Source of the DNA: Archangium violaceum
GTDB taxonomy: Bacteria; Myxococcota; Myxococcia; Myxococcales; Myxococcaceae
Assembly (NCBI RefSeq): GCF_016887565.1
Contig: NZ_CP069396.1
Span: 6,368,001 to 6,432,000, forward strand
Direction: 5' to 3'
DNA length: 64,000 bases
Part shown: one piece after another, positions 5,184 through 29,411 of the stretch
How the letters are laid out: every line of letters begins with the position of its first letter
How positions within the stretch are numbered: the first letter of the stretch is position 1
Made by a program: the position numbers and the translations under genes
Notes under the pieces: generated by a model
The model's input: the letters and a program-made list of their open reading frames with translations, nothing else
Database searches by the model: none
Told to the model about the DNA's origin: nothing

Positions 5184-5288
5184 GGCGGGGTGGTCCTACA
5201 CTCCGCATGGCCGTTGGCGTCCCCGTCGTGTCAGACCCGTGGTGCAAATTCCCGTCAGCACTGAACAGCTGGACAGAGGGGGTTGCAC

Positions 5289-6983
5289 ATGAAGACCACG
5301 GGAATCCGTTCGGGCATTCGCTGGATGTCATTGCTCTTGTCGCTCGCGGGAGTCGGCCAGGCCGCCGCCGAGCCCCTGCAGGAGGGCAACGTGCTGATCA
5401 GCACGGGCAACTCCGTCTACGAGTACACCCGGGAGGGCGCATGGGTGCGCACGCTCCCCGTTCCCTATCCCACGGGGACGCGGCCGGCGACGGAGTACGT
5501 CCGGGACATGGTGGTGGATGCCGATGGCAACCTCCAGGTCTACAACGGCACGTTCGATCCGTACCTGAGCCGCTACGACGTGGCCGTGGGGGGTTGGGAT
5601 CACTCGACGTACGCGGGCTGGAGCACGGCCAACAACGTGAGCTACGGCGGTATCGCCCGCCACGGCGACTCCGTCTTCGTCACGGACATGATGACCTATG
5701 GCACCGGCGACGAGCCGAAGGGCCTGGTGCGCTTCAATCTCCTCTCGGGTGGGGCCCAGCGCTTCGCGGACACCGTCGACTTCATCGACGTCACAGTGGG
5801 CCTGGACGGGCTGGTGTATGGCCTCGCGTATGACGAGTACCGCATCTACGTCTACGATCCGAACACCCTGGCGCAGGTGCGCACGCTCTCGCTGCCCTTC
5901 GGCCTGTCCATCCGGGGCATCGCCGTCAGCAAGACGGGGGAGATCTACGGCGCCTCGTGGAATGACTCCATCTACCGCTTCAGCTCCACCGGAGCGCAGC
6001 TCGGGGTCGTCCCCACTGGGGCCTATGACCTGACCGACATCGATCTCTCGGAGGATGGAACGCTGGTCGCGGGCTCACGCTTCGGGAAGATCATCTTCAC
6101 GGACCTGACGCTGAGCGGTGTTCGCTCCTTCTCCGTGGGCGGCTCGGAGGCGTTCGTCACGTTCGTTCCACCCGGGGGTCCCTCCCTGGGCACCGACAAC
6201 CTGCTGGTCTCCTCGGCGAACTCCCTCACCGAGTACACCTCGAGCGGGAGCCTCGTTCGCAGCGTTCCCATTTCCTCGAATGATCGGGCGAGGGATCTCA
6301 TCGTCAGCGCCAAGGATCGCGTCGAGATCTACAACGGCACGTTCGATCCGTACCTGAGCCGCTACGACGTGGGCGCGGAGAGCTGGGTCCATTGGACGTA
6401 CGCGGGCTGGAGCACGGCCAACAACGTGAGCTACGGCGGCATCGCCAGTCACGGCGACTCCGTCTTCGTCACGGACATGATGACCTATGGCACCGGCGAC
6501 GAGCCGAAGGGCCTGGTGCGCTTCAACCTCCTCACGGGTGGGGCCCAGCGCTTCGCGGACACCGTCGACTTCATCGACGTCACCGTGGGCCTGGACGGGC
6601 TGGTGTATGGCCTCGCGTACGACGAGTACCGCATCTATGTCTATGACCCGGTCACCCTGGCGCAGGTGCGCACCATCTCGCTGCCCTTCAACCTGTCCAT
6701 CCGGGGCATCGCCGTCAGCAAGACGGGGGAGATCTACGGCGCCTCGTGGAATGACTCCATCTACCGCTTCAGCTCCACCGGAGTGCAGCTCGCGGTCGTC
6801 CCCACCGGGGTCTACGACCTGATCGACATCGACATCTCGCCCTCCAATGCCCAGGTGGCGGTGGGCTCGCGCTTCGGGACGGTCATCCTCACGGACCTGT
6901 CGCTGGGCAACCTCCGGTCCTTCTCGGCGGGAAGCTCGGAGGCGTTCGTCTCCTTCACCGTCCCGGCCTTCCCCTCGTACTGA
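5289..6983 (+). CDS. Secreted beta-propeller-like protein with two near-identical halves
   Basis: Protein of 564 residues with a Sec signal peptide (MKTTGIRSGIRWMSLLLSLA, cleavage probably after GQAAA). The mature part is two homologous units, about residues 32-304 and 305-564, offset by 263 codons in the conserved block. The segment from 5541 to about 6000 is nearly identical in DNA to 6330-6789. Both halves repeat motifs such as YNGTFDPYLSRYDV, VFVTDMMTYGTGDEPKG and GEIYGASWNDSIYRFSSTG. Spaced short beta-rich repeats suggest a WD/NHL-like propeller, but no named family is recognised. ATG at 5289 is preferred over the in-frame TTG at 5283; GAGGGGG lies just upstream. Probably exported to periplasm or cell surface; function unknown. 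Confidence 0.85.
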   Translation: MKTTGIRSGIRWMSLLLSLAGVGQAAAEPLQEGNVLISTGNSVYEYTREGAWVRTLPVPYPTGTRPATEYVRDMVVDADGNLQVYNGTFDPYLSRYDVAVGGWDHSTYAGWSTANNVSYGGIARHGDSVFVTDMMTYGTGDEPKGLVRFNLLSGGAQRFADTVDFIDVTVGLDGLVYGLAYDEYRIYVYDPNTLAQVRTLSLPFGLSIRGIAVSKTGEIYGASWNDSIYRFSSTGAQLGVVPTGAYDLTDIDLSEDGTLVAGSRFGKIIFTDLTLSGVRSFSVGGSEAFVTFVPPGGPSLGTDNLLVSSANSLTEYTSSGSLVRSVPISSNDRARDLIVSAKDRVEIYNGTFDPYLSRYDVGAESWVHWTYAGWSTANNVSYGGIASHGDSVFVTDMMTYGTGDEPKGLVRFNLLTGGAQRFADTVDFIDVTVGLDGLVYGLAYDEYRIYVYDPVTLAQVRTISLPFNLSIRGIAVSKTGEIYGASWNDSIYRFSSTGVQLAVVPTGVYDLIDIDISPSNAQVAVGSRFGTVILTDLSLGNLRSFSAGSSEAFVSFTVPAFPSY

Positions 6984-7162
6984 GGCCAGGACCCCGCCTC
7001 GCGACCCTCGCGCTCCGTCATTCCCTCCACTCCAGGAGTATGAGGGGGCGCCTTTGTTCCGCGAGGCCCGTTGGCTATGATTCGGCGTCACGGAACGAGG
7101 TCACGGCTCCACGCGTGTCCTCGCTCCGTCACCCCCCATGCCGTCTCCCGCCCGCGTCACCC

Positions 7163-7183
7163 GGACCTCGGAAGCCGAGGTCC
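7163..7183 (+). promoter_or_regulatory. Hairpin in the leader of the TonB receptor gene
   Basis: Within the 300-base gap 6984-7283 there is a perfect inverted repeat, GGACCTCGG / CCGAGGTCC, separated by AAG. It sits about 100 bases before the receptor start. No U-tract follows, so it is either a leader hairpin or a DNA operator. I looked for a cobalamin riboswitch because the next gene is a TonB receptor and saw no convincing B12-box. Nothing else in this gap could be assigned. Confidence 0.35.
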
Positions 7184-7283
7184 CATCGTCTCCTGTCGCC
7201 CTGCTGGTGCTCTCCCTCTCGGGACTGGGGCTCTGGTGGGGGCCTCGGCTGACCCGGCGCACCGCTCCTCCCTCTCGCGATTC

Positions 7284-9458
7284 ATGACCATGCTTCGACT
7301 CCCTCGCTCCAGGCGAGCCTTCCTCTGGTCGTGCTCGCTCTCCCTGCTCTGTCATGCCCTCCCCGTGGGGGCCCAGGAGCGGTCCGAGGAGGAACCTCCC
7401 TCCGACCCGGACTCCCAGGCGGAGACGTTGGTGACGTCCTCCAGCGTTCCCAAGCCCCTGCTGCCCGCCTCGCGCGTGGGCTCGGAGGTGACGGCGGAGG
7501 AGCTGTCCCGCCGCCCCGCGCGCTCCACGCCGGAGGCGCTCCTGGAGGAGGAGGGCATCTTCGTCCAGCGCACCAACCACGCGGGCGGCCATCCCATCAT
7601 CCGCGGCCTGCTCGGCCACCAGGTGCTCATCATGGTGGACGGCGTGCGCCTCAACAACGCCGTCACGCGCTCCGGCCCCAACCAGTACCTCAACACCGTC
7701 GACCCGTTCCTCGTCGATCGTCTGGAAGTGGTGCGGGGCCCGTCCTCGGTGCTCTACGGCTCGGACGCGCTGGGGGGCGTCGTCAACGTCCTCACCCTGA
7801 CGCCGCGCTTCGCCTCCGAGGGCGAGCGGCGCTTTCCCGCCAGCATCCGGGCCCAGGCCGGGAGCGCGGACCTCAGCCTCCAGGGCAGCCTGCGCCTGGG
7901 CGTGGAGTTGCCGGACACCGCGGCGCTCGGCGTGGTGACGGGGCGTGACTTCAATGACCTGCGGGGCGGGGCGGCCATCGGCGTCCAGCGCTACACGGGC
8001 TATACCGAGTACGACGCGGCGGTGAAGGTGCGCCAGCGGCTGGCCCCCGGCGCCATCCTCCTGGTGCAGTATCAGGCCGCGCGCCAGGGCGATGCTCCGC
8101 GCACGGACCGCTCGGTGCCCGGCGACTTCCGCGTCTTCTCCCTCCAGGAGCGGGACTTCCTCCATGGCCAGCTCACCGTGAGCGGGGCCGGACCCTTCCA
8201 CCGCATCCGCGTGGACGCGAGCGCGCTGCGGCAGGGCGAGCGCACGGACCGCTTCCGCGTCTCCCGCGACCGCATCGAGCGCGAGGACTCGAACGTCTGG
8301 ACGTTCGGCCTGCGCGCCGAGGGCGAGCGGGGCCTGGCGTGGAACGGCGCGAGCCTGCGCGTGGGCGCCGACGTCTTCCACGACAAGGTGACGGGCGGGG
8401 CCTCCCGGGGCGCCATCCTCGTGCCGGTGGACTTCTCTCCGCGTCCGGAGCTGGCGCGCTACCCGGGCTCGCCCACCTCGCTGGCCGCGGGCCTCTTCGG
8501 CCTCTTCCAGATGGATCTCGGCACGGACGCGACGGGGCACGTGGGCGCGAGGGCGCAGCTCAACCGCATCCATCTCCCCGAGGACGACCGGCTGGCCCTG
8601 CAGTTCCCCGGCAGCCCCGTGCTGACGGCCTCCAACGCGCAGGCCCTGGGCGTGGCGGGCGAGCTGGGCTTCCAACAGCGGGTGAGCGAGGACCTCACGC
8701 TCTTCACCAACCTTGGTACGGGCTTCCGCGCGCCCAACGTGGACGACTACCTGCGCCTGGGCGCGGAGGGGCCGGGCTACGTGTTGCCCAGCCGCGAGCT
8801 GTCCCCCGAGTACTCGTACACCGCCGAGGTGGGCGGGCGCTTCCAGCGGGGCGAGGTGGCGCGGGTGCAGGCCGTGTATGCCTATACCTATATCGACGGT
8901 CTGGTGACGGCGGTGCCCGGTGCGCTCAATGGCGAGACGCATACCCCGGACGGGCTGGCCTACCTGGTGCGGACGAACGCGGACCACGCGCAGGTGCACG
9001 CGGTGGAGCTCTCCGGGCAGGTGCGGCCCGTGCGCTCGGTGACGCTGCTCGCGCGGGCCGCATGGGTCCTCTCTTCACAGAAGCGGTTGGATCCGCTGCG
9101 GCCCGAAGCGCCGGCCGAGACCGAGTCGTACTCCAAGTCCCCACCGCTCAACGGGCTGGTGCGCGCCACCTGGGAGCCGGTGGACTTCGCCTTCGTCGAG
9201 GGGGTGCTCCAGTGGGCGGCGAAGCAGGAGCGGCTGAGCGCGGCGGACCGCGAGGACATCCGCATCTGCCCCGAGTCGCCCGACTGCCAGGGGACACCCG
9301 GGTGGGCGGCGGTGCACCTGCGGGCCGGAGCGAGCTGGCGCTGGTTCACCGCGACGCTGGAGCTGCGCAACCTCACCGATGCCTCGTACCGCGCGCACGC
9401 CTCGGGCGTGGACGCGCCGGGCCGCTCGGTGACGCTCGCGCTGGAGGGCCGCCTGTGA
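7284..9458 (+). CDS. TonB-dependent outer-membrane receptor
   Basis: Outer-membrane active transporter of 724 residues. A signal peptide (MTMLRLPRSRRAFLWSCSLS, cleaved near VGAQ) is followed by an acidic linker and a plug domain: LLEEEGIFVQRTNHAGGHP, IIRGLLGHQVLIMVDGVRLN and DRLEVVRGPSSVLYGSDALG are the standard plug motifs. The remainder is an antiparallel beta-barrel ending in SVTLALEGRL. The frame is open from 7071, but the signal peptide fixes the start at 7284 or 7290. The plug resembles CirA/BtuB/HmuR-type receptors; the ligand (siderophore, haem, cobalamin or carbohydrate) cannot be read. Its stop overlaps the GTG of the next lipoprotein gene, which may be a partner. Confidence 0.93.
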   Translation: MTMLRLPRSRRAFLWSCSLSLLCHALPVGAQERSEEEPPSDPDSQAETLVTSSSVPKPLLPASRVGSEVTAEELSRRPARSTPEALLEEEGIFVQRTNHAGGHPIIRGLLGHQVLIMVDGVRLNNAVTRSGPNQYLNTVDPFLVDRLEVVRGPSSVLYGSDALGGVVNVLTLTPRFASEGERRFPASIRAQAGSADLSLQGSLRLGVELPDTAALGVVTGRDFNDLRGGAAIGVQRYTGYTEYDAAVKVRQRLAPGAILLVQYQAARQGDAPRTDRSVPGDFRVFSLQERDFLHGQLTVSGAGPFHRIRVDASALRQGERTDRFRVSRDRIEREDSNVWTFGLRAEGERGLAWNGASLRVGADVFHDKVTGGASRGAILVPVDFSPRPELARYPGSPTSLAAGLFGLFQMDLGTDATGHVGARAQLNRIHLPEDDRLALQFPGSPVLTASNAQALGVAGELGFQQRVSEDLTLFTNLGTGFRAPNVDDYLRLGAEGPGYVLPSRELSPEYSYTAEVGGRFQRGEVARVQAVYAYTYIDGLVTAVPGALNGETHTPDGLAYLVRTNADHAQVHAVELSGQVRPVRSVTLLARAAWVLSSQKRLDPLRPEAPAETESYSKSPPLNGLVRATWEPVDFAFVEGVLQWAAKQERLSAADREDIRICPESPDCQGTPGWAAVHLRAGASWRWFTATLELRNLTDASYRAHASGVDAPGRSVTLALEGRL

Positions 9459-24209: not shown

Positions 24210-24911
24210 ATGACAAGCAAAGTGCTTCACCCCGTCGTCCTCGCCGCTCTGGTCTCGTTGAGCACGGCCCCGGTGTTCGCCAGTGCTCCACCCGAGAAGT
24301 TCGAGGATTGCGAGGCGCTGACGAAGTTCGCCGAATCCGTGAACGATGCCCCCAAGCTCACCAGGCCCAAGGGCTCGCCCGGCTTCGACATCAACATCTG
24401 CTACCATCCCAAGCGCACGAAGGGCTCGAGCGAATCCGCCGCCTGGTACGTGGTGCGCCGCCAGGTCGACGGCAAGACGGTCGAGGATGCCCAGCTCGTC
24501 CGGAAGGATGGCAACTTCGAGGACATCCTCCAGGTCCGCTATCAATACGCCGGTCCCCATGCATTCATGACGAACCTGGGGGCCGAGCGGGGCTCCACGA
24601 CCCTCATCACCGTGTTCAACCCCAGCACGCAACAGTTGAAGTCCCAGGTCTACCTGGTGCCCTCGGGGGAGCAGGAGTTGGTCTTCAAGGCCGTGCCGGT
24701 GAAGGACAGCGGCGTCCGCCTGACCGTGATCGAGGCCACCCTGTCGGAGGATGGGCAGACGCCCCCCCGGTGCACGAAGAGCACCTATGTGCTCAACCCA
24801 TTCGAGGATCAGAGCCTGGCCAATAGTGATTGGGAGAAGGCCTGGGAGCAGGGGCTGAGCAAGTTCCGTCAGGGCAAGACCGTGCCGGTCAAGTGCCCGA
24901 AGTCCGTGTAG
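24210..24911 (+). CDS. Secreted hypothetical protein
   Basis: 233-residue protein with signal peptide MTSKVLHPVVLAALVSLSTA, cleaved near VFASA. The mature part contains three Cys (DCEALTKF, INICYHP, PPRCTKST) and a fourth near the end (PVKCPKS), suggesting two disulphides. AAGGA precedes the ATG by eight bases. No family recognised. It follows the S8 protease by 71 bases on the same strand and could be co-expressed; the gap contains a weak GGGCGG/CCGCCC hairpin that may separate them. Confidence 0.75.
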   Translation: MTSKVLHPVVLAALVSLSTAPVFASAPPEKFEDCEALTKFAESVNDAPKLTRPKGSPGFDINICYHPKRTKGSSESAAWYVVRRQVDGKTVEDAQLVRKDGNFEDILQVRYQYAGPHAFMTNLGAERGSTTLITVFNPSTQQLKSQVYLVPSGEQELVFKAVPVKDSGVRLTVIEATLSEDGQTPPRCTKSTYVLNPFEDQSLANSDWEKAWEQGLSKFRQGKTVPVKCPKSV

Positions 24912-26272: not shown

Positions 26273-27439
26273 GTGGTATGGCGAGTCATCGTGGAGAGTC
26301 CATCCCCAGCGCCAGTGGCAGGTCCCGGACAGCGACAGGCGGATGGTTCCGAACCGCCCGGTGCCGTCTCCACCCCCATCGCCGCCTGCTCCTGCTCCGT
26401 CGAGGATGCCGAGAGGCTGGCGTCTCGGATGGCGGAAGCCCTCGAGTCCATGGGCGACGCCTTCATCGGTCTCGACAAGGACTGGCGCATCACGCTCGTG
26501 AACGCGAGCCTGGAGCGGCTCTCCCGCAAGGCCTCGAGCGAGCTCCTGGGCCGTGTGCTCTGGGATGTCTGGCCGCGGGCCAGGGAGCCGGGCACGAACT
26601 ATTGGACGGAGTACCACCGGTGCATGGAGGAGCGCGTCCCGGTGCGGTTCGTCGAGCACGACGCGCTCCAGGACATATGGATGGAAGTCCGGGCCTACCC
26701 CACCCGAAGCGGGGGCCTCTCCCTCTTCTTCCGCGACGTGAGCGAGCAGAAGCGGGGCGTGGAGTTCGAACAGCAGCTCATCGGCATCGTCAGCCACGAC
26801 CTGCGCAACCCCCTGCAGGCCATCCGTCTCTCGGCGACGCACGGCCTCAAGACGGGAGGGCTTGAGCCGCGGCAGCGCCGCTCGTTCGAGCGCATCCTCA
26901 ACTCCTCGGACCGGGCGCTCCGGATGATCAACGACCTGCTCGACTTCACCCGCGTCCGCCTGGGCGGCGGCATCACGGTGGAGCGCGGCCAGGCCGTGGA
27001 CCTCCATCCCCTCGTCGCCCAGGTGGTGGACGAGGTGCTCGTCGCGCGGCCCGGGCGTCACGTGACGATGGAGCGCTCCGGTGACGGGCGAGGCTCCTGG
27101 GATGCCGATCGTCTCTCCCAGGTGGTGCAGAACCTCGTCCTCAACGCGCTTCAACACACCACCGAGGACGTTCCCGTGCGGGTGCGAACGTGGGGAGAAG
27201 GGGAGGAGGTCGTGCTCGAGGTGCACAACGGGGGTTCTCCCATTCCCGCGGAGGACCTTCCCCGGCTGTTCCAGCCCTTCCAGCGAGGCCGCAATGCGCG
27301 GCCCGACGGAGGCCGCAGCATGGGTCTGGGCCTGCACATCACCTACCACCTCGTGCAGGCGCACGGCGGAGGGATCCGCGTGCGTTCGAGCGCCGACGAG
27401 GGGACGACCTTCACGGTGAGACTTCCGCGTGATGGATAG
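26273..27439 (+). CDS. PAS-domain sensor histidine kinase
   Basis: 388-residue soluble kinase with no membrane segment. A PAS domain spans roughly residues 48-160 (MGDAFIGLDKDWRITLVNAS, ELLGRVLWDVWP). The phospho-acceptor is His175 in IVSHDLRNPLQAI, followed by N-box NLVLNALQHT, and G-boxes in SMGLGLHITYHLVQAHGGGI. It is the first gene of an operon with a double KaiC protein and a single-domain receiver, so it may phosphorylate the receiver in response to a cytosolic signal sensed by PAS. The start is uncertain: GTG 26273 or GTG 26291; the first 45 residues are low-complexity. Confidence 0.9.
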   Translation: MVWRVIVESPSPAPVAGPGQRQADGSEPPGAVSTPIAACSCSVEDAERLASRMAEALESMGDAFIGLDKDWRITLVNASLERLSRKASSELLGRVLWDVWPRAREPGTNYWTEYHRCMEERVPVRFVEHDALQDIWMEVRAYPTRSGGLSLFFRDVSEQKRGVEFEQQLIGIVSHDLRNPLQAIRLSATHGLKTGGLEPRQRRSFERILNSSDRALRMINDLLDFTRVRLGGGITVERGQAVDLHPLVAQVVDEVLVARPGRHVTMERSGDGRGSWDADRLSQVVQNLVLNALQHTTEDVPVRVRTWGEGEEVVLEVHNGGSPIPAEDLPRLFQPFQRGRNARPDGGRSMGLGLHITYHLVQAHGGGIRVRSSADEGTTFTVRLPRDG

Positions 27440-27504
27440 AAAGGGCGGGAAGGGCGCGTTGAGGTAGAGAGCAGCCTTCTCGTGGCACGGAAGAGGATGA
27501 GGGC

Positions 27505-29007
27505 GTGATGAGCGAGCCGATGACGGAGCGGCCCCAAGACAGGGTTCCCTCGGGGGTACGGGGTCTGGACCTCGTACTGCACGGTGGCTTCCTGCGCCGG
27601 GGCGTGTACATGCTTCAGGGCCGCCCGGGGGCGGGGAAGACCATCCTCGCCAACCAGGTGTGCTTCCATCATGCCGCGCAAGGGGGCCGCGTCCTCTACG
27701 CCACGCTGCTGGCGGAGACGCACGAGCGCCTGATCTTCAACCTCCAGCCGCTCTCCTTCTTCGACACGTCACGCATTCCCGAGCAGATCTCCTACCTGAG
27801 CGCCTTCTCGATCCTGGAAGAGGGTGGCTTGAAGGGGCTCGTGGAGGTGCTCCGGCGCGAGGTGCGTGCGCGCAAGGCCACCCTGCTCGTGGTGGACGGC
27901 CTGGTGACGGTGCAGGAGAGCGCCGAGACGAAGAAGGACTTCAAGAAGTTCATCCACGAGCTGCAGATCCACGCCAACTTCGCCGGCTGCACCATCCTGC
28001 TGCTCACCAGCGCGAGCGCGGAGCCGGTGGGGCCGGAGCACACCATGGTGGACGGCGTGCTGGAGCTCACCGACAACCGGCTGGGCCGGCGCGCGGAGCG
28101 TGAGCTGGAGGTGAAGAAGTTCCGGGGCAGCAGCTACCTGCGCGGCGGCCACGCCTTTCAAATCACCGGCGATGGCATCGTGGTGCTCCCGCGCATCGAG
28201 GCGCTCCTGCAGGAGCCGTCACGCGAGGATCCCTGCAAGTCGGAACGGGTCTCGACGGGAATCGCCCAGCTGGACCGGATGATGAGCGGAGGCCTTCCGT
28301 GCGCCTCCTCCTCCGTCCTCTTTGGTCCCACGGGGGCGGGCAAGACGACCTTCGGGCTGCAGTTCCTCGACAAATCGAGCAAGTCGGAGCCGGGCCTCCT
28401 CTTCGGATTCTACGAGACGCCGTCGCGCATCTTCCTCAAGGCCCGAGCACTGGGACTCGACCTGGAGAAGAAGCACGCGCAGGGCTTCTTCGACATCCAG
28501 TGGCATCCGCCCACCGAGCGCATCCTCGATGGGCTCGGCAACAAGCTGCTCGAGGCGGTGCGCGTGCGGGGCGTGAAGCGGCTCTTCATCGACGGGGTGG
28601 ACGGCTTCATGCAGTCGGCGGCCCATCCCGAGCGCATCAGCCACTTCCTGGCCGCGCTCACCAACGAGCTGCGGGTGTTGGGCGTCACCACGGTGTACAC
28701 CAGCGAGTTGCAAGACATGTTCTCCTCCGAGGTGAGGCTGCCGATCAGCGGTGTCTCGAGCCTCGTCGAGAACATCTTCTTCCTGCGCTTCGTGGAGCTG
28801 CGCTCGCAGCTCTACCGGATGCTGTCCGTCGTCAAGGTGCGTGACAGCGACTACGACTCCTCCCTCCGGGAGTTCCGCATCACGTCCCGGGGCATCGAGC
28901 TCGCCGACACCTTCCAGAGTGCCGAGTCCATCCTGACGGGCGATGCGAAGGTGGCGGGTTCGTCCCGGCCCAAGCGCAAGGGCCTGCTCAAGAAGCGGAG
29001 CCGTTAG
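27505..29007 (+). CDS. Double-domain KaiC-like RecA-fold ATPase
   Basis: 500-residue protein with two KaiC domains. The first has Walker A GRPGAGKT at 39-46 and Walker B-type LLVVDGLVT; the second has GPTGAGKT near 273-280 and LFIDGVDGFM. Domain starts carry the typical G-x-x-x-L-D pattern (SGVRGLDLVLHGGF; STGIAQLDRMMSGG). The C-terminus is basic (RPKRKGLLKKRSR) and lacks the KaiC phosphorylation loop, and no kaiA or kaiB is nearby, so it is not a clock protein but a signalling ATPase. Start GTG 27505 or ATG 27508. It is placed between the kinase and the receiver, with only two bases before the receiver start. Confidence 0.93.
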   Translation: MMSEPMTERPQDRVPSGVRGLDLVLHGGFLRRGVYMLQGRPGAGKTILANQVCFHHAAQGGRVLYATLLAETHERLIFNLQPLSFFDTSRIPEQISYLSAFSILEEGGLKGLVEVLRREVRARKATLLVVDGLVTVQESAETKKDFKKFIHELQIHANFAGCTILLLTSASAEPVGPEHTMVDGVLELTDNRLGRRAERELEVKKFRGSSYLRGGHAFQITGDGIVVLPRIEALLQEPSREDPCKSERVSTGIAQLDRMMSGGLPCASSSVLFGPTGAGKTTFGLQFLDKSSKSEPGLLFGFYETPSRIFLKARALGLDLEKKHAQGFFDIQWHPPTERILDGLGNKLLEAVRVRGVKRLFIDGVDGFMQSAAHPERISHFLAALTNELRVLGVTTVYTSELQDMFSSEVRLPISGVSSLVENIFFLRFVELRSQLYRMLSVVKVRDSDYDSSLREFRITSRGIELADTFQSAESILTGDAKVAGSSRPKRKGLLKKRSR

Positions 29008-29009
29008 CC

Positions 29010-29366
29010 GTGAGGACCCTCCTGGTGGTGGACGACGAGGTCGGCATCACCGATGCGCTCACGGATCTGTTGGGCGATGAAGGCTATCTCGTCCTGGTGG
29101 CACACAACGGGAAGGATGGCCTCAAGCGCATCGCCGAGAAACGGCCCGATCTCCTCCTGCTCGACTACATGATGCCGGTGATGGATGGGCGCGAGCTGTT
29201 GCTGGCCCTCCAGGCGGACCCGGCGTACCAGGGCCTTCCGGTGATCCTGATGAGTGCCATGCCCCGCTCCAGCATCCCCCCGGACTGCAAGCCCGCCGCC
29301 TTCCTGCGCAAGCCCTTCGAGCTCGACCAACTGCTCGCGGAAGTCGGCCGATTGCTCGCCCGGTAG
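29010..29366 (+). CDS. Single-domain response regulator receiver
   Basis: 118-residue CheY-like protein with no output domain. The acidic pocket is D8 and D9 (VVDDE), the phospho-acceptor D52 in LLLLDYMMPVMDG, Ser82 in ILMSAMP and Lys101 in FLRKPFE, all as required for phosphotransfer. It begins with GTG two bases after the KaiC-like stop, so it is translationally coupled. Its likely partner kinase is the PAS kinase two genes upstream; the output may be through binding to the KaiC-like ATPase, which is inference from gene order. Confidence 0.95.
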   Translation: MRTLLVVDDEVGITDALTDLLGDEGYLVLVAHNGKDGLKRIAEKRPDLLLLDYMMPVMDGRELLLALQADPAYQGLPVILMSAMPRSSIPPDCKPAAFLRKPFELDQLLAEVGRLLAR

Positions 29367-29411
29367 CGCGCTGGTCTTCTTCTGGGAGGCTTCGGATTTT
29401 CTAACGGCTGG

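Follow-up and report, generated by a model that had tools for sequence, protein, structure and literature searches.

In Archangium violaceum, the gene for a double-domain KaiC-type ATPase is directly followed by the gene for a stand-alone receiver, and comparison of the sequences indicates that the two probably constitute a two-gene module of dedicated partners. The pair lies in a stretch of 64,000 nucleotides (contig NZ_CP069396.1, positions 6,368,001 to 6,432,000, hereafter the window) of a genome of 13.2 Mb. KaiC relatives are common in clock-less bacteria, where their role is a long-standing question. A preliminary description of the locus proposed an operon of a PAS kinase, the KaiC-like protein and the receiver, spaced by two bases and devoid of kaiA and kaiB, which would form a phosphorelay acting on, or reading, the KaiC-like protein independently of a clock. 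Domain searches confirmed this gene order on the + strand. The dedication of the KaiC and the receiver to each other, probably independent of a clock, was retained from this proposal, but the fixed kinase-KaiC-receiver operon was not.

The ATPase (27505-29007, + strand) has 500 residues and scored 209 bits over two KaiC stretches in a search with PF06745. A confident structural model (predicted local distance difference test, pLDDT, 88; predicted template modelling score 0.84) superposes on KaiC with Z ≈ 37 and a root-mean-square deviation of 4.0 over 460 aligned residues; confidence is low for the 22 C-terminal residues. Two bases separate the KaiC stop codon from the receiver start codon (TAG-CC-GTG, 29008-29009, + strand), as stated previously, but the gap between the kinase and KaiC genes amounts to 65 bases. 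The receiver (29010-29366, + strand) is 118 residues long and indeed lacks an output domain or any other additional domain. It contains the phospho-acceptor Asp52 (29163-29165, + strand), Lys101 (29310-29312, + strand), Asp8, Asp9 and Ser82.

The pairing was examined in 168 distinct KaiC loci from Myxococcota, Pseudomonas, Beta- and Alphaproteobacteria, plasmids included, some of which were picked from the best-scoring places in genome searches and not at random. A receiver gene is found directly downstream of KaiC in 163 of them. The first count of 162 comprised 110 of 115 myxobacterial loci, 39 of 39 from the Pseudomonas family, 6 of 6 from Betaproteobacteria, and 7 of 8 from Alphaproteobacteria and others; the 163rd is L115, where the open frame of KaiC extends beyond the receiver. 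Five loci have no simple receiver downstream (L057, L058, L102, L164 and L165). In L164, a distant KaiC of an Agrobacterium plasmid is followed by a hybrid kinase. The L058 locus (5226-7574, - strand) encodes a protein of 783 residues with three KaiC domains and, directly after it, a kinase that has two GAF domains. On a FastTree phylogeny of 178 KaiC proteins, the distribution of the receiver needs three changes versus eight for the upstream kinase, counts that are approximate given the long branches.

The distances between KaiC proteins and those between their receivers correlate with r = 0.90 over 162 pairs; upon shuffling of partners within genomes in 1000 trials, r averaged 0.51 and reached at most 0.62. 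Of 96 partners, 94 were correctly assigned, 36 being expected. Stop and start codons overlap in 54 of the 162 joins and are 0-50 bases apart in 99; the commonest join is a four-base overlap (50/162), followed by the two-base gap seen in the window (32/162). The receiver is co-inherited with KaiC and often coupled to it in translation. The bare pair also occurs on annotated plasmid records of Cupriavidus pauculus, Rhizobium sp. Q54 and Skermanella mucosa. On the conjugative plasmid of C. pauculus (L163:5004-6832), a tyrosine recombinase gene is located about 300 bases downstream of the pair. A search for the class around a Cupriavidus genome gave a match in 2 of 274 genomes, which indicates that the class is rare in that group.

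The receiver can be phosphorylated, as judged from its residues, since Asp9, Asp52 and Lys101 are kept in all 162 receivers, residue 8 is either Asp or Glu, and residue 82 is either Ser or Thr. A profile was built from 30 KaiC-linked receivers, of which one comes from the window and three from elsewhere in its genome. Among 150 receivers scored in that genome, all six KaiC-linked ones rank within the top seven. Four of these are in the profile; the other two take ranks 1 and 4. The remaining receiver of the top seven stands alone, and the inspected stretch contains no KaiC. Homologues of the receiver mostly away from KaiC had been envisaged in the preliminary description as evidence against the pairing; the opposite was found in 13 other genomes, each with about 300-420 first-look candidates. 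Their best 30 matches all lie directly downstream of KaiC, and 41 of the 44 matches of at least 130 bits are KaiC-linked. After nine partial rows out of 66 KaiC rows were dropped, 51 of the remaining 57 full-length KaiC in these genomes were found to have a profile-matching receiver directly downstream.

The residue signature of the class was established from an alignment of the 162 receiver-paired KaiC, with the numbering of Synechococcus elongatus KaiC. In KaiC, E77, E78, E318 and E319 are catalytic glutamates, K224/R226 and K457/R459 are the trans-acting Lys/Arg residues, and S431 and T432 are phosphorylation sites. K52, E78, D145, K224, R226, K294, T295 and K457 are kept in all 162 proteins, and D378 and R459 in 161. 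The window KaiC has the Walker A lysine, the Walker B aspartate and the trans-acting residues in both rings. In its CI domain (27544-28194, + strand), the Walker A and B motifs and E78 are kept, E77 is replaced by Ala, and the KaiB-docking B-loop is deleted; in the model, strand 95-99 runs straight into helix 101-123 at this site. Its CII domain (28249-28902, + strand) keeps both Walker motifs, E319 and S431, with Tyr in place of E318 and Ser in place of T432.

These replacements are shared by the class. E77 is kept in none of the 162 proteins, E318 is replaced in at least 160 (by Tyr in 138), and the B-loop is deleted in the class sequences that were displayed from the alignment, including that of the window. 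The position of T426 is occupied by Pro in 140 proteins. S431 is kept in 116, and position 432 holds mostly Ala (60), Ser (47) or Met (25). The KaiC of the module thus appears to be a P-loop ATPase of two rings, with nucleotide sites intact in both and an eroded phospho-cycle chemistry. As this class lacks Thr432, the loop for KaiB docking and, in both rings, the first catalytic glutamate, it is unlikely to carry out a KaiABC phosphorylation cycle.

The absence of kaiA and kaiB was borne out in part. KaiA was found in none of the 96 family genomes searched, the S. elongatus control being detected, and the locus has no kaiB; KaiB is, however, present in 12 of the 96 genomes, including that of the window. 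There, it forms the second half of a receiver-KaiB fusion (L057:7279-8121, G000:C1:3179278-3180120, - strand) directly preceding another KaiC. The fusion occurs in five more genomes (L122-L126). The KaiC linked to it is canonical, with E77, E78, E318, E319, S431 and T432 kept in 6 of 6 proteins and the B-loop present in both sequences displayed. One genome thus carries a canonical KaiC with KaiB alongside six receiver-paired KaiC without the canonical features. The model of the fusion shows two domains connected by a helix of 35 residues (pLDDT 69.5). Of the 50 rows shown by a fold search with this model, all but two were receivers or receiver-bearing proteins, the exceptions being labelled as an uncharacterised Rossmann fold protein. 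The KaiB half was instead verified from its sequence, which matches solved KaiB (E = 4e-8). Two other myxobacterial genomes contain KaiB-KaiC loci (L118 and L119) with an upstream protein bearing two receiver-like domains.

A sister class was recognized in which a histidine kinase with a HisKA H-box, encoded directly after KaiC, carries the receiver at its N-terminus. It is present in the genome of the window (L059:6659-7951, + strand) and at four further loci (L274-L277). The latter were fetched from the six of the 57 KaiC that have no receiver-profile match, those of G121 and G136 being left out, and all four are followed by the receiver-kinase fusion. In the sister class, residue 431 of KaiC is Ala in 5 of 5 proteins.

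The PAS kinase (26273-27439, + strand) is an optional neighbour of the module. It is a soluble histidine kinase of 388 residues consisting of PAS_4 (57-161), HisKA (167-229) and HATPase_c (277-386) domains, with the H-box SHDLRNP at residue 174. The residues of a two-component system are therefore present at the locus, namely the H-box and ATP domain of the kinase and the Asp and Lys of the receiver. Six genomes of the genus were searched, five of which, that of the window and G061, G062, G063 and G064, have an orthologue of the window KaiC; in G065, the best match is at 46%. A tblastn search retrieved the KaiC (83-91%) and the receiver (70-90%) at all four other orthologous loci. The kinase was found in only two of the five loci, those of the window and G063, and G063 is likewise the only one of the four others with the flanking GT87 and oxidoreductase genes. 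In A. lansinium, the open frame upstream of KaiC was read by eye as an aminotransferase. Over the 168 loci, a kinase is directly upstream of KaiC in 38. The window kinase differs by 67-77% from every other KaiC-linked kinase but that of L066, and its next relatives in its own genome, at 53% identity, lie away from KaiC genes. A fixed three-gene operon is ruled out by the 38 of 168 loci, the eight changes on the tree and the divergence of the kinase.

A single transcript may nevertheless cover the three genes of the window. A terminator-like hairpin with a T-rich tail is located at the end of the receiver gene (29360-29374, + strand), and the scan revealed no such site within the gap between kinase and KaiC (27440-27504, + strand); with four sites in the scan versus 1.6 expected by shuffling, this is a faint hint. 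Elsewhere in the window, an open frame of 233 residues (24210-24911) gave no match in searches of Pfam and NCBIfam.

The mechanism that we favour, with about an even chance of being right, is a docking of the phosphorylated receiver onto the KaiC ring, which would thereby be switched. The receiver would bind the KaiC hexamer as a regulatory subunit, a role held elsewhere by KaiB. Phosphorylation of Asp52 would set the docking, so that kinase activity would switch the ATP state of the ring. The phosphate would be supplied by the adjoining PAS kinase in the window species and one relative, and by kinases encoded at other loci in other species, whereas in the sister class a kinase carries the receiver as its own front domain. 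Receiver-kinase and receiver-KaiB fusions, the archaeal KaiC-REC proteins and KaiA3 suggest that receivers are tied to Kai systems. More tentatively, the receiver might have taken the place of KaiB as the docking module, the free receiver corresponding to KaiB and the receiver-kinase to SasA. SasA consists of a KaiB-like domain and a kinase, and reads KaiC through the former; the receiver-kinase of the sister class occupies the same logical place with a docking module joined to a kinase, the receiver replacing the KaiB-like domain. The change from KaiB to receiver could then be marked by the missing B-loop and the missing first glutamates of the catalytic pairs, a suggestion that is equally tentative. 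The window kinase itself, with PAS, HisKA and HATPase_c domains only, has no KaiB-like N-terminus and is not a SasA.

Several observations weigh against a receiver that docks on and switches the ring. Two related myxobacterial KaiC loci of this class, L102 and L165, are without receiver; a related protein of about 275 residues and unassigned family follows KaiC in both. Three genomes hold a receiver of this family that is unlinked to any KaiC found by the search, and two such stand-alone receivers (L272:4304-4846 and L273:4213-4755, both - strand; 139 bits) have no KaiC within about 4 kb; they are possibly remnants or partners in trans. The receiver of the receiver-KaiB fusion falls outside the KaiC-linked family, with 67.6 bits versus 123-151, so that the fusion is a parallel and its value as direct proof for the pair is weakened; this points to a separate recruitment. 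The agreement between KaiC and receiver trees was likewise dropped as proof of contact, because tight linkage alone makes gene trees agree: where present, the upstream kinase correlates as well (r = 0.92 over 37 loci, L115, the 38th with a kinase upstream, being omitted). The co-evolution analysis proposed in the preliminary description thus matched the partners but named no contacts. With 162 pairs amounting to only 67 effective sequences, inter- and intra-protein coupling scores overlap, and the adjacent pairs K295/R89 and K297/R90 offer a lead at best.

The same lack of coupled contacts, together with a tree agreement for which linkage accounts, would suit a conserved pair that does not interact: the receiver would serve as a phosphate sink or have a distant target, the KaiC would act separately, and the operon would ensure co-expression only. 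This is improbable, as the pair persists over four lineages and plasmids, the receiver family is used almost only beside KaiC, and receivers are fused to Kai-system proteins. A more serious contender, although we would rather bet against it, is the reverse direction of signalling, with the ATP/ADP state of the ring read by the receiver, which would control histidine kinases or drain their phosphate. The receiver-kinase fusion encoded directly after KaiC in the sister class (L059 and the four fetched loci) fits a receiver reading the KaiC at least as well, and Ala431 in the KaiC of that class makes signalling by S431 phosphorylation impossible there. The receiver is, however, stand-alone in 161 of the 162 paired loci, and the conservation of the phospho-acceptor Asp in all receivers suggests that it is also a kinase target. 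Least probable is a cryptic clock or hourglass, in which KaiC would autophosphorylate S431/S432 and the receiver would stand in for KaiA and KaiB. The window KaiC does keep Ser at both phosphorylation positions, which also counts against the favoured docking and switching, and a myxobacterium is reported to possess kaiC genes and to form rhythmic fruiting rings (PMC11832031). Opposed to a clock are the replacement of E318 by Tyr and of E77 by Ala, the deleted B-loop, the lack of KaiA in the 96 genomes and, over the class, the predominance of Ala, Ser and Met at position 432 and the retention of S431 in 116 proteins only.

The gene pair has been known since 2011, from a paper on the Ramlibacter genome reportedly by De Luca et al. 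That paper describes a third group of kaiC genes, which frequently have a receiver gene after them (PMC3164672). It resembles the present class in having kaiC without kaiB, receiver or signalling genes nearby and poorly conserved phosphorylation sites, and the window locus fits this context, with a receiver directly after kaiC and no kaiB beside it. The group was called diverse and less conserved, whereas the class delineated here is cohesive, with its receiver in 163 of 168 loci, a residue signature and a deleted B-loop. With the KaiABC oscillator of S. elongatus, the module shares the double KaiC fold, the Walker motifs, K224/R226 and K457/R459; it differs by the lack of KaiA and of a local KaiB, the loss of E77, E318 and T432, the deleted B-loop and the receiver partner. 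KaiA3, a receiver-KaiA chimera that binds KaiC3, also brings a receiver with a phosphorylation site into a Kai system (PMC11372060). It combines the receiver with a KaiA-like bundle and works with KaiB3 and the autokinase KaiC3, whereas the window receiver stands alone, its 118 residues comprising no C-terminal KaiA-like domain. A KaiC-family ATPase and a receiver are likewise associated in the KaiC-REC proteins of Methanosarcinaceae, which are fused and archaeal (PMC5847659), versus separate bacterial genes here.

A survey of myxobacterial KaiC published in 2024 reported that kaiC is present in 1-7 copies, that kaiA is absent and kaiB infrequent, that the phosphorylation sites are mixed and the B-loop missing, and that there is similarity to the A-loop; its section 3.3 makes no mention of receiver neighbours (PMC11832031). 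Effects on stress resistance and biofilm are reported for a KaiC relative of Pseudomonas (PMC11832031, citing Terrettaz et al. 2023). These Pseudomonas KaiC-like proteins probably belong to the same class, given that all 39 Pseudomonas-family loci examined here have the receiver. The invariance of the receiver, the residue signature that splits the class from clock KaiC, and the fusions, the receiver-KaiB one among them, were not found in the titles and abstracts listed by searches of the open-access literature; parts may be in print elsewhere.

A constant phosphorylatable partner, and a residue signature that sets the class apart from clock KaiC, make the role of these KaiC relatives testable with two small proteins. 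The findings suggest that clock-type ATPases and two-component signalling have been joined more than once. If the receiver has indeed taken the place of KaiB, the module would be a clock-free system, found in Myxococcota and Proteobacteria and borne on plasmids, that couples histidine-kinase input to a KaiC ring.

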